64,000 nt of DNA from Flavitalea plasmicola. Lineage in GTDB: Bacteria; Bacteroidota; Bacteroidia; Chitinophagales; Chitinophagaceae. A program made the translations under genes and the position numbers. The DNA lies in contig NZ_JAUOTO010000001.1 in assembly GCF_030546645.1 (NCBI RefSeq), positions 682,001-746,000 on the forward strand, written 5' to 3'. This document shows positions 5,775 to 62,228 of this stretch, piece by piece. Each line of letters starts with the position of its first letter. The first letter of the stretch is position 1. A model generated the notes under the pieces. The model was not told where the DNA came from, did not search any database, and saw only the letters and a program-made list of their open reading frames with translations.

Positions 5775-5839
5775 GTAGCAAAGTCATGAAGACTACTGAC
5801 CATGATCATGCATAGGCTATCCACGCACGACTACTTTTA
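5775..5839 (+). promoter_or_regulatory. Tandem-operator promoter of the yceI-adhP operon
   Basis: Proximal operator TGACCATGATCA (5797-5808) is a strict palindrome. The distal half-site GTCA lies in GTAGCAAAGTCA (5775-5786), centre exactly 22 bp upstream. The -7 box TACTTTTA (5832-5839) starts after 23 bp. The predicted start near 5844 leaves a leader of about 42 nt before yceI. Confidence 0.8.
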
Positions 5840-5885
5840 CACCACCAAACAACAAACGATCATTTAAATCAAAATCATTTCAATC

Positions 5886-6494
5886 ATGAACAGGATAACA
5901 CCTTCCACCGCCAAAATGATGCTGACCGCGGCATTGCTTTCGGCTTTGCTTCTCCTGCGCGCCCTCGCTTCGAATGCGCAGACCAATTATTCCAGCAGCA
6001 CCGTGGACCTGGTGATCAGCGGCACTTCCACGCTCCACAACTGGGACATGAAGTCCGTCAAAGCCAATTGTACGGCCTCTTTCAACCAGAACAGCGCAGG
6101 CCAGGTGACAGAACTTACGGCGCTAAGTTTCTCCACCCCCGCCACCGCCCTGAAAAGCGAGCATACCTCCATGGATAACAACGCTTACAAGGCCCTGAAA
6201 ACCGATAAGAACCCCGCCATCACCTATACGATGACCTCGGCTACGGTGACCAACGGGAATGGAGGAACCATCATTGTACAAAGCAAAGGCAAGCTGACCA
6301 TTGCCGGCGCCACCCGTGACGAAGAGATCGTCGCAACCGTGAAACCCAATGCCGATAATACGTTGACGGTATCGGGCAGCCGCACCATCAGTATGAAAGA
6401 CTTCAGTATGCAGCCGCCCACTTTTATGATGGGCACCATCAAGACCGGCAACGACGTCACCCTTAAATTCAGCCTGATCCTGAAAAAAATATAA
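5886..6494 (+). CDS. YceI-family periplasmic lipocalin-like protein
   Basis: A 202-residue exported protein of the YceI family, whose members bind isoprenoid or other amphiphilic lipids in a lipocalin-like barrel. A signal peptide covers about 1-31 (ends SNAQ). The body has the family features: VDLVISGTSTLHNWDMKS near the start, LKSEHTSMDNNAYKALK, GKLTIAGATRDEEIVA, and a terminal strand VTLKFSLILKKI. It is the first gene of an operon with a porin-like protein, a second YceI, a CoA transferase and an alcohol dehydrogenase, behind a tandem-operator promoter. YceI proteins have been linked to quinone or isoprenoid handling. That would fit a respiratory island, but the ligand is not shown here. 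Confidence 0.9.
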   Translation: MNRITPSTAKMMLTAALLSALLLLRALASNAQTNYSSSTVDLVISGTSTLHNWDMKSVKANCTASFNQNSAGQVTELTALSFSTPATALKSEHTSMDNNAYKALKTDKNPAITYTMTSATVTNGNGGTIIVQSKGKLTIAGATRDEEIVATVKPNADNTLTVSGSRTISMKDFSMQPPTFMMGTIKTGNDVTLKFSLILKKI

Positions 6495-6540
6495 ACAACC
6501 CTTCAAACAATTATTACAACATCTTTTTAAATCAAATTTT

Positions 6541-7875
6541 ATGACACACAATCTCCCAAAACAAATTGCACGTTGGATACTCTTCGCACTTACCCTGCTA
6601 CCCGTGGCCGCATTTGCCCAGCTTTTGCAGGGACAGGTTCCCAACATGCGCCCTTATGACAAGTCTGGCATCAATGTCTTCGAACCAGCAAAAGACAGCT
6701 CAGTTTTCACAGGTCCTACTTTACGTGTCGGCGCAGGCTTCACGCAGGAATTCCAGAACCTGAAACACGAGAATAATTCAGATAAAGTTCCAGGCAACGT
6801 CCTGTACAAGATCTCTCCGGGATTCAATACAGCGATGGCTAACCTGTATACGGACTTCCTCCTGGCTGACGGCATCCACCTGAATGTGACTTTGTATCTT
6901 TCTACCCGTCACCATAATGAGGCCTGGGTAAAAGGCGGATATATTCAATTCGACAAGCTGCCCTTTAAAGGCGAATTCTGGAGCGATGTGATGAAGAACA
7001 CGACCATTAAGATCGGGCATTTCGAGATCAACTACGGCGACGCGCACTTCCGCAGGACTGACGGCGGACATGCACTGTACAATCCCTTCATTGAAAGCTA
7101 TATCGTTGATGGCTATGGAACGGAGATTGGTGGCGAAGTGCTCTATCAACGCAACGGTCTGTTCGGAATGGTTGGATTGACCAATGGTATGATGAAAGGA
7201 AACGTGGACTCCGTCGCTGTGACTACGGCCAATGGCAATATCAAAAAGAACCCTGCCATCTATGGCAAGCTGGGGATCGACAAAAAACTGAATGACCTGG
7301 TCCGCGTGCGTTTGTCCGGCAGCTACTACCATATCAACAGCAGCCCTACGAATGACCTGTACAACGGGGACCGCGCTGGCTCCAACTACTTCATGGTGAT
7401 GGAAAAACCCTATGTCACACCTCCCAGTGGAACAGGCGCCTATGCGGGCGACGGCTTCAGCGGAAGGCTGAACCCCGGTTTCGGATATAAAGTGGACGCC
7501 TTTATGGTGAATGGATTTGCCAAAGTCTCCCACTTTGAAGTATTCGGTACCCTGGAACATGCTCAGGGAAGGGGCAGCACTGAAACGACCAACCGCCAGT
7601 TCACCCAATATGCAGTAGATGGCCTGTACAGGTTTGGAAGGTCCGAAAATCTCTTCATCGGCGCCCGGTACAACAATGTCCTGGCTGAGCTGAAAGGGCT
7701 TCCCGTTCCAGTGACCATTGACCGGCTGTCTTACTCCGCCGGCTGGTTCCTCACCAGCAATATTCTCCTGAAAGGCGAATATGTCACACAGAAGTACAAA
7801 GATTTCCCGACATCGGATGTTCGCAACAGCGGGAAATTTGACGGATATGTAATAGCAGCAACCATCGGATTCTAA
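6541..7875 (+). CDS. Porin-like outer membrane beta-barrel protein
   Basis: A 444-residue protein with a signal peptide (about 1-26, ending AFAQ). The body consists of alternating amphipathic strands rich in aromatic residues (IKIGHFEINYGDAHFRR, LYRFGRSENLFIGARY) and ends in phenylalanine (AATIGF), as outer membrane barrels do. It resembles phosphate-selective or general porin-like proteins of Bacteroidetes, but I do not recognise a specific substrate. It lies 46 bp after the first yceI and 24 bp before the second, so the three are cotranscribed. The pairing suggests passage or binding of the same small hydrophobic or anionic ligand; this is inference. Confidence 0.75.
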   Translation: MTHNLPKQIARWILFALTLLPVAAFAQLLQGQVPNMRPYDKSGINVFEPAKDSSVFTGPTLRVGAGFTQEFQNLKHENNSDKVPGNVLYKISPGFNTAMANLYTDFLLADGIHLNVTLYLSTRHHNEAWVKGGYIQFDKLPFKGEFWSDVMKNTTIKIGHFEINYGDAHFRRTDGGHALYNPFIESYIVDGYGTEIGGEVLYQRNGLFGMVGLTNGMMKGNVDSVAVTTANGNIKKNPAIYGKLGIDKKLNDLVRVRLSGSYYHINSSPTNDLYNGDRAGSNYFMVMEKPYVTPPSGTGAYAGDGFSGRLNPGFGYKVDAFMVNGFAKVSHFEVFGTLEHAQGRGSTETTNRQFTQYAVDGLYRFGRSENLFIGARYNNVLAELKGLPVPVTIDRLSYSAGWFLTSNILLKGEYVTQKYKDFPTSDVRNSGKFDGYVIAATIGF

Positions 7876-7899
7876 GTACCTCATCTGAAATCCACGAAA

Positions 7900-8499: not shown

Positions 8500-8505
8500 A
8501 TCATC

Positions 8506-10853: not shown

Positions 10854-10918
10854 TGACGAAGATCATATCCGCATAAAACAATGGTCATATTCCCGTTCAC
10901 GCTATGAAATTATTTTGC
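10854..10918 (+). promoter_or_regulatory. Tandem-operator promoter of the 10935 gene
   Basis: Distal operator TGACGAAGATCA (10854-10865) is strict. The proximal site AAACAATGGTCA (10876-10887) keeps only the promoter-side half GTCA. The centres are 22 bp apart. The -7 box TATTTTGC (10911-10918) begins after 23 bp. The predicted start near 10923 excludes the ATG at 10920 and supports translation from 10935. Confidence 0.7.
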
Positions 10919-10934
10919 CATGGGAGCACATACT

Positions 10935-11339: not shown

Positions 11340-12407
11340 CTAATATAAGAGATTATTGAGACGGCTGAGGTCCGTGATCCGGATCTTGCCGTCCTTGATC
11401 TCGATGAGTTTTTCAGATTTGAAATCGCTGAGTGTTCGAATAAGCGACTCCGTCGCCGTACCGACATACTGCGCGATGTCCTCCCTGCTTATATCCAGCG
11501 CCTGCCCTGGCTTCGCCCCGCCTTCCTCCTTATTGAACTTGGCATGGATATCCACCAGCGCCTTGGCCACCCGCTTGCGCAGCGATCCATAGGCAAGGCT
11601 GAGTAGCCGCTCCTCCTTCTCCTGCACATTCTGGGCGATCAGGCGGATGAACTTCGTAGCCACCGTAATATCGTTAAAGACACCATTGACGAACTCGTCC
11701 CGGGGGACCATCACCACTTCGGCATCTTCCAGGACAACAGCCGTATCCTCATAGTTTTTACCTTCCAGCAATGGAAGATAGCCTATGAAGTCGCCCGCAG
11801 CATAAAAATTAGTAATATATTCTTTGCCGTCATCGTTCACCCTGGAGGCTTTTATCTTTCCTTTCTTCAGGTAATAGAGCACTTTGGGCCGCTTGCCTTC
11901 CGAATACAAAGTGAGCTTTTTGGCCAGGTCCTCCGTCTCATAGGTATCCAGCTGCATATTCAGGAGGCCGGAGCTGTTCAGGTCCTTGATCAGCTCGCTC
12001 ACGCCTTTCTCATCTGGCGCATATTTGGATTGAAGAACGTCATATTTCTTCAGGCGCACCTCTATGGCATTCAATAATTCGATGTCATCGAAAGGTTTGG
12101 TGATGTAATCGTCCGCGCCCATCTCCATGCCCTTCCTGAAATCGCCCCGCTCCGTCTTTGCCGTCAGGAAGATGAAGGGTATGTTTTCCGTTGCCGCATT
12201 CTTCCGCAGCAGATGCAATACGCCATAACCATCCAGCTCCGGCATCATAATGTCGCAGATGACCAGGTCGGGTTTTTCCCTGATCGCCGCTTCCACCCCC
12301 CGTTTGCCATTCTCCGCCGTAAAAGTCTCATATCCTGCCAGTGAAAGGATCTCGGCTATATTTTCACGAATGTCGTCATGGTCGTCGATCACGAGCAATC
12401 TGCGCAT
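11340..12407 (-). CDS. Receiver-CRP/FNR fusion response regulator (first copy)
   Basis: A 355-residue transcription factor that joins a two-component receiver to a CRP/FNR module. The receiver (1-120) has the acidic pocket Asp9/Asp11, phospho-acceptor Asp52 (CDIMMPELDG), Thr82 and Lys104. A cyclic-nucleotide-binding-like barrel follows (about 150-265), then a winged helix (about 275-355) with ISREDIAQYVGTATESLIRTL. The recognition helix keeps Glu320 and Arg324, the pair that reads TGA in FNR. The position that gives CRP its TGTGA preference is Thr. No FNR-type cysteine cluster is present. It is the best candidate, with its paralogue at 31237, to bind the TGAY-N4-RTCA operators. It lies divergent from ccoI. 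Confidence 0.93.
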   Translation of the reverse strand: MRRLLVIDDHDDIRENIAEILSLAGYETFTAENGKRGVEAAIREKPDLVICDIMMPELDGYGVLHLLRKNAATENIPFIFLTAKTERGDFRKGMEMGADDYITKPFDDIELLNAIEVRLKKYDVLQSKYAPDEKGVSELIKDLNSSGLLNMQLDTYETEDLAKKLTLYSEGKRPKVLYYLKKGKIKASRVNDDGKEYITNFYAAGDFIGYLPLLEGKNYEDTAVVLEDAEVVMVPRDEFVNGVFNDITVATKFIRLIAQNVQEKEERLLSLAYGSLRKRVAKALVDIHAKFNKEEGGAKPGQALDISREDIAQYVGTATESLIRTLSDFKSEKLIEIKDGKIRITDLSRLNNLLY

Positions 12408-12461: not shown

Positions 12462-12527
12462 CAATAATATAAATTAAAAAGAAAACCCCCGGCTGACCAG
12501 GATCAGTATTTACACTGATAACCGTCA
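12462..12527 (-). promoter_or_regulatory. Candidate autoregulatory promoter of the receiver-CRP gene
   Basis: Read leftwards, the two ccoI operators (12494-12505 and 12516-12527) are followed by TATTATTG (12462-12469). The spacing is one base longer than in the other modules (24 instead of 23 bp). The arrangement mimics the shared-operator divergent promoters elsewhere in the window. The off-by-one spacing keeps this tentative. Confidence 0.4.
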
Positions 12528-12558
12528 TATTCCCGGAAAACGCTCGATTTTATCTTGC
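12494..12558 (+). promoter_or_regulatory. Tandem-operator promoter of ccoI
   Basis: Two strict palindromes, TGACCAGGATCA (12494-12505) and TGATAACCGTCA (12516-12527), lie 22 bp apart. After 23 bp comes the -7 box TATCTTGC (12551-12558). The predicted start near 12563 is only about 3 nt from the ccoI ATG, so the transcript would be nearly leaderless. Confidence 0.85.
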
Positions 12559-12565: not shown

Positions 12566-14986
12566 ATGGAAACCACCACCACCGGCATAAAGATCACCTG
12601 CTACCACTGTGGAGACCCTTGCTTATCTACCCCCGTTACCCTGGGCGAAAAAGCCTTTTGCTGTGAGGGCTGCAAGACCGTATACCAGCTGTTGGATCAT
12701 GGTGGTCTGTGCGAATATTACCGGCTGAATGACAAGCCAGGCGTCCCTCGCACGGATCCCGGCCATAAGGATAAATTCGCTTTCCTGGCCGATGAGAAAA
12801 TAGCAGGACGCTTTGTTATTTTTCGCGATGACCGCGAAACCCATGCCCGGTTCTATCTTCCGCAGATCCATTGCAGCTCCTGCCTCTTCCTCCTGGAGAA
12901 CCTGCATCGCCTGGATGCAGGAGTGATCTCCTCCCGTGTGGACTTTGCCGCCAGGGAGGTCGCCATTGTCTTCAACCACCATGAAATGAATATCCGGCAG
13001 CTGGCCGAGCTGCTATCCGCCACCGGGTATGAACCCTACATCAGCCTGCGCGACCTGGGACAGTCCCGGCCACCCGCTGCCAGGGGCAACGTATACAGAC
13101 TGGGCATCGCCGGTTTCTGCTTTGCCAACATCATGCTGATGAGCTTTCCCGAATACCTGGGGCTGGAAGGGTCCGAACCCTTGCTCCGGAGCTGGTTTCG
13201 TATGCTGAACCTGGCACTGGCCATACCCGTGTTCTTTTACAGCGCCCAGCCTTTTTACCGCAGTGCCTGGAAAGGCTTACGGAATAAATTTCTCAATATC
13301 GATGCCCCGATAGCCCTCGCCATCATCGTCACTTTCATACGCAGTGCATATGAGGTGCTGTCCGGTACAGGCGCCGGCTATTTCGACTCCATGACTGGCA
13401 TTGTTTTTTTTATGCTGGCAGGTCGTGCGCTCCAGGACAGGACCCAGCGACGATTGTCCTTCGAAAGGGACTATACTTCTTACTTTCCCATCGCCGTCAG
13501 CTTGCTCCAGGACGGTAAAGAGGTCCCCCGGACATTGCCGGAGATCCGCTGCGGCGATACGCTGGTCATCCACCATGGTGAGCTGATACCCGCCGATGGG
13601 ATCATTACCCGGGGACAAGCGCTTATTGATTACAGTTTTGTCACGGGGGAATCGCTGCCTGTGGCAAAAGAGCTGGGCGAGCTGGTGTATGCCGGCGGTC
13701 GCCAGACCGGACCCGCCCTGGAAATATTAGTGGTGAAAGAAGTAGCCCAGAGCTATCTCACCCAGCTATGGAACAGGCATGAAGAAAAGAAGGAAGAACA
13801 TTCCTATATTCATCTGCTCAGCCGCTGGTTCACCTATATAGTCCTGACCATCGCCACCGGCGCTGCCATCTACTGGTGGATCTTCGACCCCGCCCGGATC
13901 GCCGGCGCCGTTACTGCCGTGCTGATCGTAGCCTGCCCTTGCGCGTTGCTGCTGTCCAGCACCTTTACCAACGGTAATATCCTGCGGATCCTGGGCAACA
14001 ATGGCCTTTACCTGCGTAATGCCCGCGTCATCGAAAATATTGCCGCCACCACCCATATCGTGTTCGATAAGACGGGCACCCTGACGACGCCAGGGGACGA
14101 TGCCGTCACCTACGAAGGCAGCCCGCTTACTCCTGCGCAACTGGAGGCCATCGCCGTGCTGGCAGCCCAATCCACCCACCCGCTTAGCAAGGCGCTGACC
14201 CGGCACCTGGGTAGGGCAGAACGTCTTGCCATTGCCGGCTTCAGAGAGTCTCCGGGAAAAGGAGTAGAAGGCTGGATCGACGGACAAAAACTGTCCATCG
14301 GTAGCCGCCTGTTCGTGACGGGTCTGCCATCGGCAGGCACGGAAACCCGCGTGTACGTCGCCTGGAACAACCAGCTCATGGGACATTTCCGGTTCTCTAA
14401 CCATTACAGGGATGGGATTCCCGCACTGGTGCAAACGCTTGGCCGTCGTTTCCGCCTCTCCCTTCTCTCCGGCGACAACGACAGGGAAAGGAGCCGGCTG
14501 CAGGCCTTCATGGGAAGGAACGCCCGCATTTTTTTCAACCGGACACCCGAAAAAAAGGCGGCCTACATATCTCAATTGCAGCAGCTGGGGGAAAAGGTCA
14601 TGATGATCGGGGACGGCCTCAACGATGCCGGGGCCCTGCGACAAAGCGATACGGGTATCGCCCTGGCGGAAGACCACCATTCATTTACGCCTTCCAGCCA
14701 TGCCATCCTGGAAGCTTCCCGGCTCCAACGTCTTCCCCAATTCATCCGGTTCTGCCGCATGGCCGGGAGGATCATTCTCGCCAGCTTCATCCTTTCCATT
14801 CTCTATAATGTCATCGGCCTTTCATTTGCCGTGCGGGGTCAGCTTTCGCCGCTGATCGCGGCCATCCTCATGCCTTCCAGCTCGCTGAGCATACTCATCC
14901 TCACTTACAGCTCCGTCAATTGGGCCGCAAAATACCTGGGATTCAACCTTTCCCCTCCAGCTGAGAAGGATCATGCGTCCCGCTAA
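12566..14986 (+). CDS. ccoI: Copper-translocating P-type ATPase for cbb3 oxidase assembly (CcoI/FixI)
   Basis: An 806-residue P1B-type ATPase that supplies copper for the binuclear centre of cbb3 oxidase. The N-terminus has the cysteine-rich segment of FixI/CcoI (CYHCGDPC and CCEGC, about 12-35), then a heavy-metal domain with HCSSC. The membrane CPC motif is at 457-459 (VACPCALLLSS), the phosphorylation site DKTGTLT at Asp501, and the hinge GDGLNDAGAL near 680. It heads the oxidase cluster. Its last codons contain the operators of the next promoter. The ATG at 12566 sits almost at the predicted transcription start. The length is typical for the family. Confidence 0.95.
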   Translation: METTTTGIKITCYHCGDPCLSTPVTLGEKAFCCEGCKTVYQLLDHGGLCEYYRLNDKPGVPRTDPGHKDKFAFLADEKIAGRFVIFRDDRETHARFYLPQIHCSSCLFLLENLHRLDAGVISSRVDFAAREVAIVFNHHEMNIRQLAELLSATGYEPYISLRDLGQSRPPAARGNVYRLGIAGFCFANIMLMSFPEYLGLEGSEPLLRSWFRMLNLALAIPVFFYSAQPFYRSAWKGLRNKFLNIDAPIALAIIVTFIRSAYEVLSGTGAGYFDSMTGIVFFMLAGRALQDRTQRRLSFERDYTSYFPIAVSLLQDGKEVPRTLPEIRCGDTLVIHHGELIPADGIITRGQALIDYSFVTGESLPVAKELGELVYAGGRQTGPALEILVVKEVAQSYLTQLWNRHEEKKEEHSYIHLLSRWFTYIVLTIATGAAIYWWIFDPARIAGAVTAVLIVACPCALLLSSTFTNGNILRILGNNGLYLRNARVIENIAATTHIVFDKTGTLTTPGDDAVTYEGSPLTPAQLEAIAVLAAQSTHPLSKALTRHLGRAERLAIAGFRESPGKGVEGWIDGQKLSIGSRLFVTGLPSAGTETRVYVAWNNQLMGHFRFSNHYRDGIPALVQTLGRRFRLSLLSGDNDRERSRLQAFMGRNARIFFNRTPEKKAAYISQLQQLGEKVMMIGDGLNDAGALRQSDTGIALAEDHHSFTPSSHAILEASRLQRLPQFIRFCRMAGRIILASFILSILYNVIGLSFAVRGQLSPLIAAILMPSSSLSILILTYSSVNWAAKYLGFNLSPPAEKDHASR

Positions 14987-15026
14987 CAATCGTCATTAAG
15001 AAACTATGCGGTTAAAAATATTTTTG
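14962..15026 (+). promoter_or_regulatory. Tandem-operator promoter of ccoS-ccoNO, inside the ccoI 3' end
   Basis: Distal site TGAGAAGGATCA (14962-14973) lies within ccoI codons. Proximal site TAACAATCGTCA (14984-14995) starts on the ccoI stop codon. The centres are 22 bp apart. After 23 bp is TATTTTTG (15019-15026), a perfect -7 box. The predicted start is near 15031, 23 nt before ccoS. Confidence 0.75.
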
Positions 15027-20748: not shown

Positions 20749-21453
20749 ATGTGGGTCCTGTTTGCAACGGCAATATCCCTGGGGTTGGTAAGCAGCCTGC
20801 ATTGCGTAGGCATGTGCGGACCACTGGCCCTGGCGCTGCCCATCCGTCATTTGTCCCCTGCAGGTCGCACGGTAGCGTTGCTCACCTACCACGGCGGCAG
20901 GCTGATGATCTATGGAACTTTAGGGGCCATTACGGGTCTGGTGGGTAGGCATATTTATCTCGCCGGCTTTCAGCAGGCGTTTTCCATTATCATCGGGGCT
21001 TTGATGTTATTGTGGATAGCCGCCCGCCATTTATTTTCCATAGGCACGCCGCCCGCAATGGCGGGGAAATTATTCCGCCCTTTGGAGGCCTTCATTGGCC
21101 GGCTGTGGCAGTCGCCATCCAGACATAGTTTCTTCTTTCTTGGTATGGCCAACGGGCTGCTGCCCTGTGGCATGGTGTATCTCGCCGTGGCTGGCGCTTT
21201 CAGCTTTCCGCAGGTGTGGGAAAGTATTGCATTCATGTTTTTGTTTGGAGCAGGCACCCTGCCCGCGCTGTTGATCCTTAGCTTCTCCGGTCGCCTGATA
21301 GGCCCGGCGGCTCGGCTGTATATGAGAAAGGCCGTGCCTTACCTCGTCGCGACGATGGGCCTCCTGCTCATCCTGCGGGGCCTGGATCTCGGCATCCCAT
21401 TCGTCAGTCCCGTCCTGGCCCATGGTCAGCACCCTGCCATTTCCTGTCATTAA
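20749..21453 (+). CDS. Sulfite exporter TauE/SafE-family membrane protein of the cbb3 operon
   Basis: A 234-residue protein with about six membrane helices, of the TauE/SafE (DsbD-like) superfamily. The conserved GMCGPLALALP motif is near the N-terminus, and a related FLGMANGLLPCGMVYLA motif starts the second half, with cysteines in each. Members in this position close many Bacteroidetes cbb3 clusters and are suspected to act in copper or thiol handling for the oxidase. Transport of sulfite is not implied. Its stop overlaps the convergent kinase gene by four bases. Confidence 0.85.
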   Translation: MWVLFATAISLGLVSSLHCVGMCGPLALALPIRHLSPAGRTVALLTYHGGRLMIYGTLGAITGLVGRHIYLAGFQQAFSIIIGALMLLWIAARHLFSIGTPPAMAGKLFRPLEAFIGRLWQSPSRHSFFFLGMANGLLPCGMVYLAVAGAFSFPQVWESIAFMFLFGAGTLPALLILSFSGRLIGPAARLYMRKAVPYLVATMGLLLILRGLDLGIPFVSPVLAHGQHPAISCH

Positions 21454-23012
21454 TCCACCGTACCTTCCGGCACCTCCACAGTGATCGTGGTGCCCTTATC
21501 CAGTATGCTCTCAAGTCCGAGCGTGCCGCCCAGCAGGTCCACATAACGCCTGACGATGTGCAGCCCCAGGCCCGTGCCTTCAATATTCTGGGCATTGGCG
21601 CCGCGGAAAAAGGTGCTGAAAAGATGCTGCTGGTCCTCCGGGGAGATCCCGATGCCCTCATCCCTCACCGACAGGAACATGTTCCGCCCGGGATGATGCT
21701 GCACGTTCAGCCAGATGCCTGCTCCCTCCGGCGAGAACTTCGATGCGTTGCTGAGCAGGTTGATGAGAATATTCCTGAGCAGGCGTTTGTCGCTGACAAA
21801 AGAATGATCCCCCGGGCAGTCGCAGTGGATATCCTGCCCTGGCTTTGCCAATGGCCTCATCTCTTCTACGATCTCATCCAGGAACTCTTTGACGGGGAAC
21901 TTTGTCATTTCAGCCCGGATGATCCCTTCTTCCAGCTTGCCCAACGACAGGAAATCTTCCAGCAGGTCATTCAGGTGCTTGACGGAGTCCTTTATTTTTT
22001 TGATATGTTTGTCCCGTTTTTCCTGGTCCGCCGTCTGGGTATACCTGGACAGCAGGGCTGCCGAGGAAAGCACCGTGCTGAGCGGCGTCCGGAACTCATG
22101 CGAGGCCATCGAGACGAACCTTGATTTGATCTCATTCAGCTCTTTCTCCTTATTGAGCGCTTCGTTCAATTCCCCCTGCGAACGCTCCAGCTCCTGGAGC
22201 GCCTCCCGTAATATCAGGGTACGTTGCTCCACCTTGCTCTCCAGCTCCGCATTCAGCCGGCTGATGTCCTGGGTGATCTTTTCCAGCTCGGCCTTGCGGT
22301 CCAGCAGCTCCCGCTCCGCCTGCTTGCGCTGCGTGATATCCACCAGGAAGGCAATGACGAAGAACGTGTTCTTCTGACGGTAGTAACTGAGGCTCACTTC
22401 CACCGGGAATTCCCTGCCGTCCTTCTTGCGGGCGAAGAGATCCCGTCCATGGCCCATGGTCCTGTTGGAAGGATGTTGGTAGAACCCTTCGCGGTATTGG
22501 GTATGATGGGCATGAAATCGGCCGGGGATCAGTATCTCGATGGACTTGCCCAACAGTTCATCTTTTTCATATTCGAGCAGGTTGGAAGCCGCAGGGTTCA
22601 GCAGCACGATTTTACCTTTGTCATCCGTCAGGATGATCCCTTCCGTGGCATGTTCGAACAGCGCATTCACCTGCATCTGCTCGGATTCGATGCTGCGGTA
22701 TAATTTTTTGACATACAGGACGAAGATCATGGTCATCAGGACGATCATGAGGGAGAAGGCATGCTGTATCAGCACCTGGTCGCGTTCCATATGCTCGTGC
22801 TCGTAAAAAGACGAGACAATGATGAGGCCGGCGCCGATGCCGCCGAACAGCTTGGTATAAGCATCGTTCTTCAGGAAAATGGTCAGCAAGACAGCTGTGA
22901 TCAGTCCGCCATCAAAAATGCTGATGCCGGGATTCATGTATTGCAGCACCCCCGAGCTAACGGTTACGATGATGCAGAAAAGGAGGACATTGAACGACTT
23001 TTCTTTGAACAT
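21450..23012 (-). CDS. Membrane PAS sensor histidine kinase with a FixL-like PAS domain
   Basis: A 520-residue kinase. Four membrane helices (about 8-24, 36-48, 54-70 and 83-101) are followed by a PAS domain (about 113-225), a coiled coil (about 225-290), the DHp H-box MASHEFRTPLS (His305) and an ATPase domain with N, G1 and G2 boxes (NLLSNASKFSP, DEGIGIS, GTGLGLHI). The PAS aligns with the heme pocket of FixL: His170 sits where the proximal heme histidine lies, and Arg190 in MGHGRDLFARKKDG matches the ligand-sensing arginine. This PAS type also occurs without heme, so oxygen sensing is an inference. It is cotranscribed with an alcohol dehydrogenase from a tandem-operator promoter, which would give feedback. 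No receiver gene is adjacent; the two receiver-CRP proteins are the natural partners. Confidence 0.9.
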   Translation of the reverse strand: MFKEKSFNVLLFCIIVTVSSGVLQYMNPGISIFDGGLITAVLLTIFLKNDAYTKLFGGIGAGLIIVSSFYEHEHMERDQVLIQHAFSLMIVLMTMIFVLYVKKLYRSIESEQMQVNALFEHATEGIILTDDKGKIVLLNPAASNLLEYEKDELLGKSIEILIPGRFHAHHTQYREGFYQHPSNRTMGHGRDLFARKKDGREFPVEVSLSYYRQKNTFFVIAFLVDITQRKQAERELLDRKAELEKITQDISRLNAELESKVEQRTLILREALQELERSQGELNEALNKEKELNEIKSRFVSMASHEFRTPLSTVLSSAALLSRYTQTADQEKRDKHIKKIKDSVKHLNDLLEDFLSLGKLEEGIIRAEMTKFPVKEFLDEIVEEMRPLAKPGQDIHCDCPGDHSFVSDKRLLRNILINLLSNASKFSPEGAGIWLNVQHHPGRNMFLSVRDEGIGISPEDQQHLFSTFFRGANAQNIEGTGLGLHIVRRYVDLLGGTLGLESILDKGTTITVEVPEGTVD

Positions 23013-24105: not shown

Positions 24106-24170
24106 TAAAGCTACTTAAACACCCGCCGCCCAATCATGACCATTATCACCGTAACCATTGATCATCCTCA
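24106..24170 (-). promoter_or_regulatory. Tandem-operator promoter of the dehydrogenase-kinase unit
   Basis: On the minus strand the proximal operator is TGATAATGGTCA (24137-24148, strict). The distal one is TGAGGATGATCA (24159-24170), 22 bp away. The -7 box TAGCTTTA (24106-24113) follows after 23 bp. Both operators are shared with the plus-strand USP promoter. Confidence 0.8.
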
Positions 24171-24201
24171 TGGCCTGCCATTGCCATTTGTAATTACTTT
24201 A
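24137..24201 (+). promoter_or_regulatory. Tandem-operator promoter of the USP-ppsA unit
   Basis: The same two operators as the divergent promoter are read in the other direction. Here the proximal site is TGATCATCCTCA (24159-24170), followed after 23 bp by TTACTTTA (24194-24201). The predicted start near 24206 excludes the upstream ATG at 24136 and supports ATG 24217 for the USP. Confidence 0.7.
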
Positions 24202-24216
24202 TGGAAAAACTTACAT

Positions 24217-25056: not shown

Positions 25057-25063
25057 TAATACT

Positions 25064-27475: not shown

Positions 27476-28749
27476 GGCGATGGCGGCTTTATATGATGAT
27501 CCCGTTGTTCCTTTTTGGATGGAATGCCATGGGGCAATCGTATCTTCAGGCCGGGCTGGTGAACCAGTTTTATAAGTCCAGGCAGCAGGCGCTTTTCTGG
27601 TTTGCATTGGATACAGACGCCGCGCCATTGAGGCAGGAACTATTGTCGCTGTTGGATAGCGCAGCTTTTCATGGATTGGACAGCGACCGTTATCACCTCA
27701 AAGAGATGAGGACCTGGCCTGCCTCACCGGGTGGGAGTAATGTCTCCTGGCAGCGGCAAAAGGACGAATGGCTGACCGATGCCGCCATCGCTTATCTCAA
27801 GTCCCTGCGGGAAGGTACGGGCATCTATGAACAGGTGAGCTACGATGGGGTATCCTCGTCTTACAATGTGGAGGAGGACAATCTGCTGCTGGAAGGGTTG
27901 TCCCGGGTGCGCACGGCAGACCAGCTGAGAGCGCTGGCAGCGACATTGATTCCCGCTTCAGCGGCCTATGATACGTTGCGGGCAGGGCTGCTCCAGGCTT
28001 TGACCGCGGGCGACCGCCAAAAGATCAGGCAGCTGTCACCGGCGCTCAATCTCTACCGCTGGATCCATCACCATCCTTTCCCCCGGTGTATCGTCGTGAA
28101 TATCGCTTCCGCCTCTCTCTCCTATTACGAACAGGACACCGTCAGGTTGCGGATGAAAGTAGTGGTAGGGAAACCTTCCACCCGCACGCCCCGGTTTGCT
28201 GCCTGGTGCGATCAGCTCATATTGTATCCCTATTGGAATGTACCCCATAAAATCGCCGTAAATGAATTCTTACCCGTGTTCAGGAAGTCGCCCTCCCTGG
28301 TGGATGTGATGAACATGCAGCTCCTGGATGGCAAGGGAAAGATCGTCGACCCGCTGAAGATCGACTGGTCCCGGCTCAATAAAGATAATTTCCCCTACGC
28401 GCTGCGCCAATCCACGGGATGCGACAATGCCCTGGGCGTATTGAAGTTCAATCTCACCAGCCCTTATGATGTGTATATGCATGACACCAATTTCAAGAAT
28501 GCTTTCCAGTCAGCCTACAGGTATTACAGCCACGGTTGCATACGCGTGGAAAAGCCCTTCGAGCTGGCAAACGCAATAATGGGAGAGAAGCTCGACACGA
28601 CGTTCCTTGCCGCAGGCCTGAAAGACCAGCAGCCTCGCCCGCTACGGCTGGAAAACCCCGTTCCCGTATTCGTGGTATACCTCAACGCCGACATCGATGC
28701 GGACGGCAAGCTGAGATCCTATAGAGATATATATCATTTACTGAAATGA
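27472..28749 (+). CDS. L,D-transpeptidase (YkuD/YcbB type)
   Basis: A 425-residue exported enzyme that forms 3-3 cross-links or anchors in peptidoglycan. A signal peptide covers about 1-22 (ends NAMGQ). A helical scaffold domain follows, then the catalytic YkuD domain (about 200-395) with HDTNFKNAF and YSHGCIRVEKP. Cys356 is the nucleophile in SHGCIRV. It overlaps ppsA by four bases (ATGA), so it is translationally coupled. Its stop codon is the first half of the operator of the next promoter. Stronger 3-3 cross-linking is a known feature of non-growing cell walls in other bacteria. Confidence 0.93.
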   Translation: MRRWRLYMMIPLFLFGWNAMGQSYLQAGLVNQFYKSRQQALFWFALDTDAAPLRQELLSLLDSAAFHGLDSDRYHLKEMRTWPASPGGSNVSWQRQKDEWLTDAAIAYLKSLREGTGIYEQVSYDGVSSSYNVEEDNLLLEGLSRVRTADQLRALAATLIPASAAYDTLRAGLLQALTAGDRQKIRQLSPALNLYRWIHHHPFPRCIVVNIASASLSYYEQDTVRLRMKVVVGKPSTRTPRFAAWCDQLILYPYWNVPHKIAVNEFLPVFRKSPSLVDVMNMQLLDGKGKIVDPLKIDWSRLNKDNFPYALRQSTGCDNALGVLKFNLTSPYDVYMHDTNFKNAFQSAYRYYSHGCIRVEKPFELANAIMGEKLDTTFLAAGLKDQQPRPLRLENPVPVFVVYLNADIDADGKLRSYRDIYHLLK

Positions 28750-28789
28750 TGTAAGTCATCTCGTCCGCCCGTGCCACATACTAGCTTTA
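28725..28789 (+). promoter_or_regulatory. Tandem-operator promoter of the holin-like/USP/pfkB unit
   Basis: Proximal operator TGATGTAAGTCA (28747-28758) is strict, and its TGA is the stop codon of the L,D-transpeptidase. The distal half-site lies in AGATATATATCA (28725-28736), 22 bp upstream. The -7 box TAGCTTTA (28782-28789) follows 23 bp after the proximal site. Confidence 0.8.
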
Positions 28790-31236: not shown

Positions 31237-32295
31237 ATGAAAAAGATATTGGTTATAGAAGACGAAAATGATGTGAGGGACAATATAGCCGAGATCCTGC
31301 AATTGTCCGATTATGAGGTGCTGAAAGCCCCTGATGGCATGTCAGGTATCGACATGGCGATGAAGGATGCCCCCGATCTCATTATCTGCGATATCACCAT
31401 GCCCGGGTTGGACGGCTACGAAGTCCTGCACGCATTGCACCGGCATACGCCAACGGCGAATATCCCTTTTGTTTTTCTCACTGCGTCGACGGAAAAAGCA
31501 CAAATAAGAAAGGCAATGACGGCGGGAGCCGACGATTACCTCACAAAACCTTTTGAAGGCATCGAATTGCTGAGAGCCGTGGAGACCTGTCTGAGGAAAC
31601 GTCAGCTCAGGCTGGCCGCCAACGCCGCCCGCATAACTTCCGCCGCTCCTTCGCCGGGAGCAGGCACGATCCTTCAGCTGCTGCGACTGGATCCCGAGCA
31701 ACGGGACGTCCAGGCTTTTCGAAAAAGACAGATGGTCTACCAGGAAGGGCAGCGGCCCGGTTTTATCTACTACCTCCTCTCCGGAAAGATAAAGGTCTAC
31801 CGAACCCATTCGGACGGGAAAGAATTCATTACTACCATTGCAGGTCCCGGAGATTTCCTTGGATATGCGGCCCTCTTACAGGACTGCAATTACCAGGATA
31901 ATGCCCAGGTGCTGGAAGACGCAGGCATGCTGCTGATCTCAAGACAGGAATTCCTTGAGTCGATGGCCCATGACAGGAGCATTGCCCAGCACTTCATCGA
32001 GCTGCTGGCCAGGGATGTAAAAGCACAGGAACAGAACCTGATGAGCCTGGCCTACAACTCCCTGAGAAAAAGAGTCGCCAATGGACTCCTGCAGCTGACA
32101 GACAGGTTCCCGGAAAAAGAAGGAAAGGACACGTCCATCGGTATCTCGCGGGACAACCTTTCCCATTTCATCGGCTCGGCCACCGAGTCGCTGACCCGGA
32201 CGCTCAGTGACTTCCGCAATGAAAAGCTCATCGATATCCGGGATGGGAAGATCTACCTGCTGAACAAGGAAAAACTGAGCAATCTTGCAAATTGA
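31237..32295 (+). CDS. Receiver-CRP/FNR fusion response regulator (second copy)
   Basis: A 352-residue paralogue of the regulator at 11340. The receiver (1-120) has Glu8/Asp9, phospho-acceptor Asp52 in CDITMPGLDG, Thr82 and Lys104. A cNMP-like barrel (about 150-265) and a winged helix with ISRDNLSHFIGSATESLTRTL follow. Recognition-helix residues Glu317 and Arg321 are again present, so the two proteins should read the same TGA core. No cysteine cluster is seen. I find no clear tandem-operator module directly upstream, so it may be read from the pfkB unit or from a weak promoter in the 79-bp gap. Two copies suggest division of labour or heterodimers. Confidence 0.93.
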   Translation: MKKILVIEDENDVRDNIAEILQLSDYEVLKAPDGMSGIDMAMKDAPDLIICDITMPGLDGYEVLHALHRHTPTANIPFVFLTASTEKAQIRKAMTAGADDYLTKPFEGIELLRAVETCLRKRQLRLAANAARITSAAPSPGAGTILQLLRLDPEQRDVQAFRKRQMVYQEGQRPGFIYYLLSGKIKVYRTHSDGKEFITTIAGPGDFLGYAALLQDCNYQDNAQVLEDAGMLLISRQEFLESMAHDRSIAQHFIELLARDVKAQEQNLMSLAYNSLRKRVANGLLQLTDRFPEKEGKDTSIGISRDNLSHFIGSATESLTRTLSDFRNEKLIDIRDGKIYLLNKEKLSNLAN

Positions 32296-32874: not shown

Positions 32875-32913
32875 ATATCCTCCTTTTTTTTGGTTAATGA
32901 AATAATTTCCAGA

Positions 32914-32978
32914 CAAAGTTATTCCGGCACAGGACCCGGACCTACGACCCTTGTCAGCGGCTTCCATGAAGCTGGTCA
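32914..32978 (-). promoter_or_regulatory. Tandem-operator promoter of hsp20
   Basis: On the minus strand the proximal operator is TGACAAGGGTCG (32945-32956) and the distal one TGACCAGCTTCA (32967-32978), 22 bp apart. The -7 box TAACTTTG (32914-32921) is a perfect TAnnTTTG after 23 bp. The predicted start near 32909 leaves a 35-nt leader containing the strong Shine-Dalgarno. Confidence 0.8.
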
Positions 32979-32979
32979 C

Positions 32980-33044
32980 TGATAAAAGTTCTCCTTGCAG
33001 ATGATGTTGATCATTGGCCCGGCATTCCGCCGGCCCTATCTTGC
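32980..33044 (+). promoter_or_regulatory. Tandem-operator promoter of the baeRF3-type gene
   Basis: Proximal operator TGATGTTGATCA (33002-33013) is strict. The distal TGATAAAAGTTC (32980-32991) keeps its left half, 22 bp upstream. The -7 box TATCTTGC (33037-33044) follows after 23 bp. The predicted start near 33049 excludes the ATG at 33045 and supports ATG 33060. Confidence 0.8.
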
Positions 33045-33059
33045 TTGAAAACAGGAACT

Positions 33060-35082: not shown

Positions 35083-35147
35083 TAAAAGTATTCATGGTTC
35101 CGATGGCATTGTATGACAGGGATCATCGAAAGTCATGACAGCCCTCA
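35083..35147 (-). promoter_or_regulatory. Tandem-operator promoter of USP 3
   Basis: On the minus strand the proximal operator is TGATCCCTGTCA (35114-35125, strict) and the distal one TGAGGGCTGTCA (35136-35147), 22 bp apart. The -7 box TACTTTTA (35083-35090) follows after 23 bp. Both operators are shared with the divergent ATPase promoter. Confidence 0.82.
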
Positions 35148-35178
35148 GCTCCGCCGGACATCCGATGGAATAATTTTA
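35114..35178 (+). promoter_or_regulatory. Tandem-operator promoter of the two P-type ATPases
   Basis: The shared operators are read rightwards: distal TGACAGGGATCA (35114-35125), proximal TGACAGCCCTCA (35136-35147), then 23 bp and TAATTTTA (35171-35178). The predicted start near 35183 leaves a leader of about 13 nt. Confidence 0.8.
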
Positions 35179-42337: not shown

Positions 42338-42402
42338 TTAAGGTACCAAGTTTCAGCCGCTGATCCCATGACGGCTCTCATACCTTATTTTGACTATGCT
42401 CA
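42338..42402 (-). promoter_or_regulatory. Tandem-operator promoter of the protease-USP unit
   Basis: On the minus strand: distal TGAGCATAGTCA (42391-42402), proximal TGAGAGCCGTCA (42369-42380), 22 bp apart. After 23 bp is TACCTTAA (42338-42345). Both operators are shared with the divergent kinase promoter. Confidence 0.7.
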
Positions 42403-42433
42403 TATGTCCAGGCACGATATTGACATACCTTTC
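42369..42433 (+). promoter_or_regulatory. Tandem-operator promoter of the kinase pair
   Basis: Distal TGACGGCTCTCA (42369-42380), proximal TGACTATGCTCA (42391-42402), then 23 bp and TACCTTTC (42426-42433). The predicted start is near 42438. Confidence 0.72.
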
Positions 42434-45660: not shown

Positions 45661-45682
45661 ATGTATAAGTATTGATTTTACC

Positions 45683-45747
45683 CAAATCAACGGCATTCCC
45701 GGATGAAATACAATGATCCTGGTCAAAGCAGTCCATGAAGAAAGTCA
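45683..45747 (-). promoter_or_regulatory. Tandem-operator promoter of USP 5
   Basis: On the minus strand: distal TGACTTTCTTCA (45736-45747), proximal TGACCAGGATCA (45714-45725, strict), 22 bp apart. After 23 bp is TTGATTTG (45683-45690), a -7 box with A replaced by T at position 2. Confidence 0.75.
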
Positions 45748-45750: not shown

Positions 45751-45815
45751 TGACGATTGTCAGGGAAGGGATTGACAGCGCTCAGGCAGAAGCCATATGT
45801 TTTGAGGTAGTATTG
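45751..45815 (+). promoter_or_regulatory. Tandem-operator promoter of the Mla-FtsH operon
   Basis: Distal TGACGATTGTCA (45751-45762, strict), proximal TGACAGCGCTCA (45773-45784), 22 bp apart. After 23 bp is TAGTATTG (45808-45815). The predicted start near 45820 leaves about 13 nt before mlaE. Confidence 0.78.
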
Positions 45816-55706: not shown

Positions 55707-55771
55707 TAAAAGTAGTATCGATACCGCTTTCCGGTCCTGACCTGATGCAGGCTCATAAATGACTTTGATCA
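55707..55771 (-). promoter_or_regulatory. Tandem-operator promoter of USP 6-mgtA
   Basis: On the minus strand: distal TGATCAAAGTCA (55760-55771, strict), proximal TGCATCAGGTCA (55738-55749) keeping the promoter-side GTCA, 22 bp apart. After 23 bp is TACTTTTA (55707-55714). Confidence 0.72.
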
Positions 55772-55791: not shown

Positions 55792-55856
55792 TGACCATTC
55801 TCATGAACGGGGAACACCGGGGTCATTCATCCCCACCGGTCCGCGAGGTAACTTAG
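55792..55856 (+). promoter_or_regulatory. Tandem-operator promoter of USP 7
   Basis: Distal TGACCATTCTCA (55792-55803), proximal ACACCGGGGTCA (55814-55825) keeping only GTCA, 22 bp apart. After 23 bp is TAACTTAG (55849-55856). The predicted start is near 55861, 13 nt above the ATG. Confidence 0.65.
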
Positions 55857-58170: not shown

Positions 58171-58198
58171 ATGGTATTTTTTGTAAAAATAGCAGCAG

Positions 58199-58753
58199 TT
58201 ACCCTACAGGAACATGACGGGAGTCAGCCCCGGACCTGACCATGGTTATCGCGCTGTTGACGACGCCGGTGATATTTTCTCTTTTTACCCCGTCGATATC
58301 ATGTAACATGGCAGCTTTTTTCTGCGGGTCTTTTTCCAGCCTTGCTCCCATTTTAAGCATCAGCCTGTCTTTCCAGGACAGTTCCCGGATGGTCAGCCTT
58401 CCGGACAGGAAAAAGATATTTTCCATAGGGATCAGATCTTCCGGAACATTGTCCCTGACGATCTGTTCCTGTTTTTGCCTTTCCGAGGACGAGGTGCCGC
58501 ATACGACAAAGAGCATTAATTGCTTCGTCTGCAATTTTGCCAGATGACGATGGAGCCAGCCCTTTATCAGCATTTTCCCTATATAGACGGGTGTGCCCAG
58601 CACCAGATAGTCGAATCCCTCCAATGCCGCGGGATAAAGCTCATCGACGTCCATCACCGGTATTTGCAGCTGTTGCCCGATCCATTCCGCGTATTGCCGG
58701 GTGGAGCCATACCGGCTGCTGAATATCACCGCTCCTTTCTTGTTCAACGACAT
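58199..58753 (-). CDS. hemG: Flavodoxin-domain protein, probably HemG-like protoporphyrinogen dehydrogenase
   Basis: A 184-residue flavodoxin-like protein. The FMN phosphate loop reads SSRYGSTRQYAEWIG, and VLGTPVYIGKMLIKGW forms the second loop. The C-terminal part (ELSWKDRLMLKMGARLEKDP) resembles the HemG tail. HemG oxidises protoporphyrinogen IX with menaquinone. The adjacent hemN supports this, but a plain flavodoxin remains possible. The frame from 58843 starts above the predicted transcript (about 58764), so ATG 58753 is used. Confidence 0.75.
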   Translation of the reverse strand: MSLNKKGAVIFSSRYGSTRQYAEWIGQQLQIPVMDVDELYPAALEGFDYLVLGTPVYIGKMLIKGWLHRHLAKLQTKQLMLFVVCGTSSSERQKQEQIVRDNVPEDLIPMENIFFLSGRLTIRELSWKDRLMLKMGARLEKDPQKKAAMLHDIDGVKRENITGVVNSAITMVRSGADSRHVPVG

Positions 58754-58768
58754 AATGAATATTTTGTA

Positions 58769-58833
58769 CGAATCTAGCCGACGCATTGCCGGGACACTAT
58801 GACCTGTGTCAGGCTGATGGCTGACTTTGATCT
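58769..58833 (-). promoter_or_regulatory. Tandem-operator promoter of hemG-hemN
   Basis: On the minus strand: distal AGATCAAAGTCA (58822-58833), proximal TGACACAGGTCA (58800-58811, strict), 22 bp apart. After 23 bp is TAGATTCG (58769-58776). Confidence 0.75.
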
Positions 58834-58868
58834 CCTGCTGCATACTCCTCCACTAACAGCATATACCC

Positions 58869-58933
58869 CGGCTTTTCTCATATCCCCGGATGATGAGGAT
58901 CATTTATTTTCTGAAGGATAATGTCAACCTTTA
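58869..58933 (+). promoter_or_regulatory. Tandem-operator promoter of the DUF2892-CHAD-dehydrogenase unit
   Basis: Distal half-site in CGGCTTTTCTCA (58869-58880), proximal TGATGAGGATCA (58891-58902, strict), 22 bp apart. After 23 bp is AACCTTTA (58926-58933). The predicted start near 58938 excludes the ATG at 58890. Confidence 0.7.
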
Positions 58934-58955
58934 TAAAAATGTAAAAAGACTCATT

Positions 58956-61165: not shown

Positions 61166-61193
61166 GGGGCCGGATATCTATCCGGCCCCTTTC
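61166..61193 (+). terminator. Rho-independent terminator after the third dehydrogenase
   Basis: Stem GGGGCCGGAT (61166-61175) and ATCCGGCCCC (61180-61189) with a four-base loop and a short T run. It lies 43 bp after the stop codon. Confidence 0.82.
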
Positions 61194-61232
61194 ATATTGC
61201 TGTCCCGACGGTTGCCAGACCTGTCGGCACTG

Positions 61233-62072
61233 TCAGGCGGATGCAATCTTAAAAATTACAGGCTGCCGCTTGTACGACTTGACCTTGCGTCCGTTCTGTA
61301 TGGCGGGGATCCACGTTCCGCTCTTGCGGATGACCCGGATGGCCTCCGCCCGAAGACCGCCTTCTTCCGGACCGCTGACTGCCTGTACGTCACTTACGTT
61401 CCCGTCTTTATCCACGATGAACTGTACCATCACTACTCCCTGGATCTCATTGGCCAGCGCATCGTCCGGATAGTGAAAATTCTTATTGAGGTATCGCAAC
61501 CATGCCGCCGGTCCGCCGGGATATTCAGACTCGATCTCCACCTTGGTAAAGGTCTTGTCATAATCTTCGACAACCTTTGCCTTGGGCGCTTCCACCACGC
61601 CCTTTCCTGCATCCGAGACAGGGGGGGCAGTGATCCCCTCATCCTTGATCCCTTCCTGGTTGATCGTCCCGATGCGGGTGTCTTCCAGCTTTTCCTGGAC
61701 AGGAGGTTTGTCCTCCTCTTTTACTTCATTGTCCTTTACGATCTTTGGAGGCGTAAATCGCGTGATCTCAATTTTTTGGAGGGGGACTTTCGGCGGCGGA
61801 GGCGGCGGTGGCAGGGGTTCGCTCTTCTTCTCTTCTACGACCTGCTCCAGCTGCACGTCCTTTACCATCATGACCTCTTTTTTCGTCCCGCCGTTGTTCT
61901 GAACGACGAAGAAGATGACGAAAAGGAGGCCCGTGACGCCCATCATTGCGCTAAGCGACGCCAACAGGCGTTTGTTATAATTCTTTCTCAGGTCATAGGC
62001 GCCATATTCCTTGTTCCTGCCATCAAATACGATGTCCAGGATACTGCTGTGTAGTACTTTATTGGCTTCCAT
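61233..62072 (-). CDS. tonB: Energy transducer TonB
   Basis: A 279-residue TonB-type protein. One N-terminal helix (about 32-52, SLSAMMGVTGLLFVIFFVV) precedes a proline-rich spacer with KSEPLPPPPPPPKVP. The C-terminal TonB domain (about 190-275) carries YPDDALANEIQGVVMVQFIVDKDGNVSDVQAVSG and the IPAIQNGRKVKSYKRQPVIFKI end. It couples the inner-membrane proton gradient to outer-membrane uptake. It is a single gene with a module-type promoter, not linked to exbB or exbD here. It could serve receptors such as the SusC at the left end. Confidence 0.93.
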   Translation of the reverse strand: MEANKVLHSSILDIVFDGRNKEYGAYDLRKNYNKRLLASLSAMMGVTGLLFVIFFVVQNNGGTKKEVMMVKDVQLEQVVEEKKSEPLPPPPPPPKVPLQKIEITRFTPPKIVKDNEVKEEDKPPVQEKLEDTRIGTINQEGIKDEGITAPPVSDAGKGVVEAPKAKVVEDYDKTFTKVEIESEYPGGPAAWLRYLNKNFHYPDDALANEIQGVVMVQFIVDKDGNVSDVQAVSGPEEGGLRAEAIRVIRKSGTWIPAIQNGRKVKSYKRQPVIFKIASA

Positions 62073-62110
62073 GATAATTATATTTCTTGATGAATAATAT
62101 CTCGTGATAT

Positions 62111-62175
62111 CAAAGCTAATGACAAGACGGTGCCGTTATTATGACCGCTGACCCCGCACGTAATGATCTCAATCA
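62111..62175 (-). promoter_or_regulatory. Tandem-operator promoter of tonB
   Basis: On the minus strand: distal TGATTGAGATCA (62164-62175, strict), proximal GGTCAGCGGTCA (62142-62153) keeping GTCA, 22 bp apart. After 23 bp is TAGCTTTG (62111-62118), a perfect -7 box. Confidence 0.72.
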
Positions 62176-62228
62176 ATACAATGACTGAGTTCCATCATCG
62201 CCCGGCATGGGCCAGACGTTTAACTTGG
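62164..62228 (+). promoter_or_regulatory. Tandem-operator promoter of the glucan phosphorylase
   Basis: Distal TGATCTCAATCA (62164-62175) is shared with the tonB promoter. The proximal TGAGTTCCATCA (62186-62197) is 22 bp further on. After 23 bp is TAACTTGG (62221-62228). The predicted start near 62233 falls on ATG 62234, so the mRNA is probably leaderless. Confidence 0.72.

Follow-up and report, generated by a model that had tools for sequence, protein, structure and literature searches.

A tandem-operator promoter module of fixed geometry in Flavitalea plasmicola and related Bacteroidota, probably a class II CRP/FNR-type promoter of low-oxygen genes

The DNA analyzed here (hereafter, the window) is a 64-kb stretch of the genome of Flavitalea plasmicola, a member of the Chitinophagaceae (Bacteroidota) (RefSeq assembly GCF_030546645.1, contig NZ_JAUOTO010000001.1, positions 682,001 to 746,000 of the forward strand). 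Upstream of many of its genes, on both strands, lies a 65-bp promoter module that consists of two palindromic operators and a -7 box (TGAY-N4-RTCA, N10, TGAY-N4-RTCA, N23, TAnnTTTR). A preliminary description, based on the sequence alone, had reported 21 shared modules; our recount over the same span yielded 22. These were retained from the 27 rows of a loose scan (operator pair at 12 of 16, box at 4 of 6 specified bases); the five other rows (12364+, 22504+, 32945+, 55887+, and 60059-) were judged to be coding or weak reverse readings of a better module and were dropped. The modules, along with three protein-coding genes on which the interpretation hinges, are as follows (Usp, universal stress protein).

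5775..5839, plus strand: module, before YceI-like gene 5886-6494
10854..10918, plus strand: module, before unknown gene 10920-11330
12494..12558, plus strand: module, operator bases 16/16, before ccoI-type P-type ATPase gene 12566-14986
14962..15026, plus strand: module, before ccoNO fusion gene (cbb3 oxidase) 15157-17433
24137..24201, plus strand: module, before Usp and phosphoenolpyruvate-synthase-like genes (24136-27475); operator pair in common with the minus-strand module
24106..24170, minus strand: module, before zinc-dependent dehydrogenase gene 23046-24086; operator pair is that of 24137 (+)
28725..28789, plus strand: module, before small Holin-X-family gene 28807-29166
32914..32978, minus strand: module, before Hsp20 gene 32416-32979; the start codon would lie 3' of the mechanical start of the open reading frame (ORF)
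32980..33044, plus strand: module, before baeRF3/ribosome-hibernation-factor-like gene 33045-34112
35114..35178, plus strand: module, before P-type ATPase gene 35196-37721; operator pair used both ways
35083..35147, minus strand: module, before Usp gene 34219-35064; operator pair is that of 35114 (+)
42369..42433, plus strand: module, before AAA_33 gene 42455-42970; operator pair used both ways
42338..42402, minus strand: module, before M50-CBS protease gene 41204-42328; operator pair is that of 42369 (+)
45683..45747, minus strand: module, before Usp gene 44824-45726
45751..45815, plus strand: module, before mlaE gene cluster starting at 45833
55707..55771, minus strand: module, before unknown gene 54859-55680
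55792..55856, plus strand: module, before Usp gene 55874-56695
58184..58248, minus strand: module, before radical SAM gene 56785-58170
58769..58833, minus strand: module, before flavodoxin-like gene 58199-58843; the start codon would lie 3' of the mechanical ORF start
58869..58933, plus strand: module, distal operator 5/8, box 4/6, before YgaP-TM gene 58890-59165
62111..62175, minus strand: module, before TonB gene 61233-62072; middle palindrome in common with 62164 (+)
62164..62228, plus strand: module, before glycogen-phosphorylase-like gene 62207-63898
11340..12407, minus strand: protein A (P0001), with a receiver domain, a cyclic-nucleotide-binding (cNMP) fold, and a CRP-type helix-turn-helix (HTH), proposed reader of the module
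31237..32295, plus strand: protein B (P0002), paralogue of protein A
21450..23012, minus strand: PAS histidine kinase (P0003), FixL/EcDos-like heme-PAS, proposed oxygen sensor

The module in the window is a real feature of this DNA. Strict TGAYNNNNRTCA palindromes occur 21 times in the 64 kb, compared with 4.6 ± 2.2 in 60 Markov shuffles, and 18 operator pairs that match at least 14 of the 16 specified bases are found at a spacing of 22 (shuffles: mean 0.13, maximum 1). Among the window spacings between 12 and 69, the runner-up, 18, is represented by 7 pairs, and the remainder by at most 4 each. A TAnnTTTG box (at least 5 of 6 bases) stands at offset 23 in 14 of the 36 directional pairs on both strands, and any other offset accounts for no more than 2. 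The scan against shuffled sequence at fixed spacing, which the preliminary description had put forward as a check, produced 18 matches to the full pattern with at most 3 mismatches in the window against 0.05 in shuffles (mean of 20); a single such match was detected in 400 kb from elsewhere in the source genome, and the whole genome (8.73 Mb) contains 46, with none for the reversed pattern. The promoter-side TCA is kept in 21 of the 22 modules and the TGA in 17, with the same counts for both operators, close to the original figures (20 of 21 for TCA; 16 and 17 of 21 for TGA). One operator pair, at 43937, lacks a box.

The same geometry was found outside the window, in the flanks of genes for relatives of protein A (80 named loci, chosen as the best among 551 confirmed places; the titles of many give Chitinophagaceae or Chitinophaga, those of the rest Runella, Dyadobacter, or unplaced Bacteroidetes). 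With each operator required to match at least 7 of 8 bases and the pair at least 15 of 16, spacing 22 was counted 120 times and spacing 21 eight times, all other spacings from 12 to 59 being represented at most 6 times each; the box stands at offset 23 in 155 of the 350 directional pairs, other offsets reaching 9 at most. Altogether, 190 modules are spread over 68 of the 80 loci, and the full pattern gave 210 matches compared with 0, 0, and 1 in shuffles. Among the module-bearing loci are those of Chitinophaga rupis (L191), with 5 modules, and Chitinophaga filiformis (L199), with 2. When matrices trained solely on the window were applied to these loci, 121 of the 150 operator-plus-box anchors were preceded by a further operator at a distance of exactly 22 bp, any other distance being represented at most three times. 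Neither the spacing counts nor the matrix scan of the 80 loci showed a peak for a second operator one turn away, and there was none at 32-33 or 43-44, which, together with the one-base strictness of the 22-bp distance, argues for contact between neighboring dimers. A lone palindrome was considered as the working unit and rejected: the box is present at N23 in 11 of the 257 strict lone copies in the 80 loci (counted per strand) and in none of the 10 in the window.

Extending the scan to 60 genomes of the family yielded 853 pattern matches, compared with 80 for a pattern with three bases added to the spacer and 224 for one with the box at N18, part of both these control numbers being true modules seen through the allowed mismatches. 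Taken over the window, the 80 loci, and the 60 genomes, the counts support the original reading of the module as a tandem operator at fixed spacing. In a sample of 247 genomes from across the phylum, the pattern was matched in 43 and the receiver-CRP protein was detected in 38; of the 186 genomes sampled outside the class, 8 contain one or two matches, compared with 6 for the reversed pattern, and none encodes a receiver-CRP. The module occurs across many families of one class of Bacteroidota.

In the sequence logo of the 190 modules, it is the four half-sites and the -7 box (TAnnTTTG) that are informative; N10, N23, and the place of the -33 element carry almost no information, except for a T directly after the proximal TCA. 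The TGA and TCA bases are conserved at 90-97%, a figure to be read in light of the fact that the modules had been selected by these bases. Both operators share the same consensus, and the outer T/A of the FNR box, quoted as TTGAT...ATCAA in the available text of PMC7888657, is not conserved. The start-site map of Flavobacterium psychrophilum, as given in the available part of PMC9723704, places the TAnnTTTG box at -12 to -5; under the assumption of the same placement here, the operators would be centered at -41.5 and -63.5, as had been suggested originally. Of the 22 leaders predicted in this manner in the window, 7 are 13-17 nt long, 7 others fall within 3-126 nt, and, for the remaining 8, the mechanical start of the ORF precedes the predicted +1 or is not assigned.

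The operator pair is symmetric and hence can serve two diverging genes. Three window pairs (24137, 35114, and 42369), a feature absent from the preliminary description, have good N23 boxes on both sides; by the 4/6 rule, boxes on both sides accompany 4 of the 18 window pairs and 29 of the 172 pairs in the 80 loci. A variation on this theme is found at 62142-62197, where three palindromes follow each other in 22-bp steps between diverging promoters, the middle one being common to the modules 62111 (-) and 62164 (+); the window and the 80 loci together contain 8 such triple arrays.

The genes downstream of the 190 modules include ccoNO (25), ccoI (23), Hsp20 (11), relatives of the unknown gene 10920 (10), the PAS kinase (10), receiver-CRP itself (7), YgaP (5), and Usp genes of several kinds; 57 modules precede other genes and 18 have no gene downstream. 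Further targets in the 80 loci are ScdA/RIC-like, Rrf2, and PNPOx-like genes (identified with Pfam) and c-type cytochrome-like genes (judged by eye). Among the 28 genome matches outside the window, the 15 that were inspected precede, among others, genes for a nitroreductase, cytochrome c, a BON protein, and a second baeRF3 protein, with only short reading frames downstream of two (L049 and L057). Each of the two baeRF3-type proteins (33045-34112 and L050) is preceded by a module, and the first scores 168 of the 330 bits required by the NCBIfam ribosome hibernation factor family, that is, below the cut-off; ribosome dormancy may belong to the module regulon. Two proteins of 272-273 amino acids, encoded at 29360-30178 and 54859-55680 among universal stress genes, the second with a module of its own, have no Pfam or NCBIfam match at E 0.001. 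The CcoP-type protein of the cco cluster (17471-18820, 449 amino acids) has a FixP_N domain that begins at residue 271, with an extra N-terminal half.

The proposed reader is the receiver-CRP fusion, in which a receiver and a CRP-type HTH are joined in a single chain of 352-355 amino acids in the two window proteins. The receiver residues D9, D52, T82, and K104 (acidic pocket, phospho-acceptor Asp, Thr, and Lys) are present in all 29 receiver-CRPs compared, as are the recognition-helix residues E320 and R324; within the family, the recognition helix is GTATESLIRTLSDF. FNR has an N-terminal cysteine cluster plus a further Cys, and in the cAMP-type CRP the phosphate-binding cassette contains an Arg. 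None of the 29 receiver-CRPs has an FNR-like cysteine cluster, each having 1 to 3 Cys of which C51 alone is common to all, and there is no Arg in the cassette stretch GDFxGYxxLLExxxYxDxA in the 8 rows read out of the 29; by these textbook criteria, the receiver-CRP appears to be neither an iron-sulphur FNR nor a cAMP receptor. The invariant Cys51 directly adjoins the phospho-acceptor Asp52. The predicted structure of protein A (mean pLDDT 77, pTM 0.39) comprises the receiver, the cNMP-binding fold, a helix at 247-294, and the HTH, with the second helix starting at E320; the domain arrangement in this model is too unsure and was not used.

Across genomes, the number of modules tracks the presence of a full-length receiver-CRP; the link between the two that had been proposed from the window holds. 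Presence was judged from at most 34 candidates per genome in the family and at most 8 in the phylum sample, with all candidates re-checked in 8 genomes, and single absences could be misses. The median is 14 modules in the 47 family genomes with a receiver-CRP compared with 2 in the 13 without it (Mann-Whitney p 3e-7, kinship uncorrected); in the class outside the family, at least one module (at most 2 mismatches) is present in 24 of 33 genomes with a receiver-CRP against 4 of 20 without (Fisher p 2e-4, again uncorrected for kinship); and, within one genus, modules occur in 3 of 4 genomes with the protein and in none of 10 without it (likewise uncorrected).

The candidate for the sensor is the FixL-like kinase. 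Its PAS domain matches the solved heme-PAS domains of FixL and EcDos at E 3e-10 to 4e-9 (the best solved match is 10jx, a multi-sensor kinase, at 6e-12), and His170 aligns with the residue that we take to be the heme-ligand His of these domains. The predicted ligand His is kept in 57 of the 58 aligned kinase rows, 8 further rows being gapped, and 65 of the 66 kinases retain His305 in the phosphorylation box. In 55 of the 80 loci, a homologous kinase gene lies within 100 bp of the receiver-CRP gene on the same strand. The low-oxygen theme of the preliminary description is likewise supported.

From the sequence, spacing, distribution, and gene neighborhood of the module, we regard the module as a probable tandem class II CRP/FNR-type promoter, most likely read by the receiver-CRP under the control of the FixL-like heme-PAS kinase at low oxygen. 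Two CRP-fold activator dimers would sit next to each other on the same face of the DNA, one on each TGA-N6-TCA palindrome (-63.5 and -41.5), and would be in mutual contact. The proximal dimer would overlap the place of the -33 element and touch the RNA polymerase held at the -7 box, and the distal dimer would strengthen or sharpen the response. Low oxygen would be conveyed by phosphotransfer from the kinase to the receiver-CRP, such that the FixL-FixJ-FixK cascade would be compressed into two proteins, and the genes activated in this way would be those for cbb3 oxidase, universal stress proteins, Hsp20, ion pumps, and ribosome-hibernation-like factors. In some relatives, a cysteine-cluster FNR-like protein with a nearly equal helix would act on the same operator.

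Several observations weigh against this interpretation. The flanks of 12 of the 80 receiver-CRP loci, including those of Runella limosa (L194), Dyadobacter (L210 and L211), and Chitinophaga skermanii (L176), contain no module, and 9 of the 33 class genomes with a receiver-CRP, all from family f5 (for example, loci L258 and L259), have none at 2 mismatches or fewer. Conversely, two genomes have pattern matches without any HTH_Crp_2 match: the complete genome G010, with 8 matches at up to 3 mismatches (6 of these at 3), and G012, 72% complete, with 5 matches including two perfect modules. The recognition helix of the receiver-CRP varies outside the family (L251, L252, L256, and L257). The source genome itself encodes 12 HTH_Crp_2 matches, 10 above the cut-off and two of these receiver-CRPs, so the module binder is not unique. 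As for the sensor, the kinase gene of the window closes the cco cluster, 9 kb away from that of the receiver-CRP, and an Arg occupies the place of the conserved FixL Arg in 28 of the 66 kinases only. As for the FNR-like input, the 20-kb stretches around the FNR-like genes of five genomes (G132, G166, G249, G031, and G055; L244-L248) are free of modules, though the first four genomes have 5, 4, 2, and 2 elsewhere, respectively, and G055 has 23 at up to 3 mismatches.

In some genomes, a second kind of sensor may act on the same operator. In four genomes (G205, G024, G052, and G006), an FNR-like protein with N-terminal cysteines adjoins module-bearing cco genes (L240-L243). In three of these proteins, the recognition helix is GTATESxIRLLSEF, with GTSTES in L243, nearly equal to GTATESLIRTLSDF; all ten single-domain relatives L240-L249 have a C-x2-C motif near the N-terminus and a later Cys, the cysteine pattern of FNR. 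A full-length receiver-CRP is absent in G205 (L240) and G052 (L243), where these proteins co-occur with modules, and present in G024 and G006. In the phylogenetic tree, the receiver-CRPs form one clade (support 100/99) and the FNR-like proteins another (96/91); the fork that unites the two is weaker (85/74) and also includes L102 and L105, paralogues from the source genome itself. Two kinds of oxygen sensor may therefore share a single operator. The receiver-CRP stands as the proposed reader in the source genome, but to name it as the only one would be too narrow, FNR-like proteins apparently using the same operator.

The strongest alternative, which we regard as unlikely, is that the main reader is another, single-domain protein of the CRP/FNR family, the receiver-CRP being a mere neighbor or modulator. 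In its favor, the FNR-like proteins of G205 and G052 accompany modules where a full-length receiver-CRP is absent, and four of the other HTH_Crp_2 proteins of the source genome (L102, L105, L109, and L111) have a module-like match just upstream. Against this alternative, the GTATES helix is found in none of the nine single-domain proteins of the source genome that were read out of ten (L112 not among them), the cysteine-cluster proteins L103 and L107 have the helix GTTYETVF, and the module number follows the presence of the receiver-CRP across genomes.

The paralogues L102 and L105 (C12:274525 and C14:587423) have the helix GTAREN, and their upstream matches are of another flavor with the same 22/23 geometry (in L102, the operators are TGATAAAAGTTA and TGATAAAATGCA), so the tandem architecture may be general in this group of proteins.

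It is rather improbable that the two palindromes have different binding proteins, or that the module serves repression, one of its sites having a tuning or blocking role. There is a precedent in the rhizobial fnrN, where, according to the available text of PMC7888657, a dual anaerobox combines activation at the distal site with repression at the proximal one, and the window encodes both paralogues A and B. However, both operators have the same consensus, and the tandem is kept where there is a single receiver-CRP match (G035 with 55 modules, G005 with 27, and G020 with 22), which makes one operator for each paralogue unlikely, as well as in G205, which lacks the full-length protein; the missing -33 element and the class II position of the proximal center speak for activation. 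Chance, base composition, or a dispersed repeat is a negligible prospect: it might account for the loose matches in G010 and for the one or two matches per genome outside the class, about as frequent as those to the reversed pattern, but chance is refuted by the shuffles in the window and the 80 loci, and a copied repeat is rejected because the bases that separate the operators show no conservation.

Beyond the preferred reading, in which the receiver-CRP acts at a tandem class II promoter, a broader generalization appears to us evenly balanced between true and false. A class of Bacteroidota would have a rigid two-dimer low-oxygen code of four half-sites with 22/23 spacing and a dimer-of-dimers regulator. 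The DNA-binding part would stay of one kind while its sensor alternates between an iron-sulphur, FNR-like form and a receiver that takes its signal from a heme kinase, and a symmetric pair would fire two divergent genes.

In the open-licence literature searched, we found no description of a tandem FNR/CRP operator in Bacteroidota or of a receiver-CRP oxygen regulator, and the same literature says little about oxygen-dependent gene control in these inhabitants of soil and water. The module offers a scannable pattern from which the low-oxygen regulon could be read off in genomes of the class, and it names a likely sensor and regulator; it also is a natural test of spacing strictness between CRP-type dimers and of the exchange of sensors with the operators retained.

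The FNR of Escherichia coli has a CRP fold, an E-x-x-x-R recognition helix, and a TGA-N6-TCA core operator, all of which are shared by the receiver-CRP and its proposed operator; unlike FNR, the receiver-CRP has a receiver domain and no cysteine cluster. FixJ is a receiver with an HTH of the LuxR/NarL type, whereas the output of the receiver-CRP is a cNMP-binding fold with HTH_Crp. In contrast to FixK, the receiver-CRP unites both parts in a single chain, although a separate FixK might be encoded elsewhere in the genome.

CRP/FNR-family regulators have been described in related bacteria, namely, MalR and other homologues in metagenome-assembled genomes of Flavobacteriales and Saprospiraceae (available text of PMC8510549); these are assigned a role in carbon sensing, with a Bacteroides motif, and the words "tandem" and "receiver" are absent from the main text of that paper. 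The system of PMC8547461, as far as its available text goes, is not a receiver-CRP. Rhizobia possess the FixL-FixJ-FixK and hFixL-FxkR-FixK pathways along with FnrN (available text of PMC7888657). With these, the present system would share a kinase of the FixL type, a receiver, an activator of cbb3 oxidase with the CRP fold, and an FNR protein with a cysteine cluster that acts on the same operator. Unlike in the rhizobial systems, the receiver and the CRP-fold activator are fused here, so that a separate FixJ and a fixK promoter step would be dispensed with, and the operators are tandem. The module resembles class II FNR/CRP promoters in that, if the -7 box starts at -12, a TGA-N6-TCA site at -41.5 would replace the upstream promoter element, and in its targets, given that, in the accessible account of Sphingopyxis, Fnr boxes are located at -41.5 before ccoN and uspA (PMC7713065), that is, likewise before cbb3 oxidase and usp genes. 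The differences are the second palindrome 22 bp upstream, seen in 121 of the 150 anchors, and the TAnnTTTG-type -7 box. Judging from these sequence comparisons, the module would be a class II CRP/FNR promoter in tandem form, served in many genomes by a shortened input of the FixL-FixJ-FixK kind and in some by an FNR-like one.

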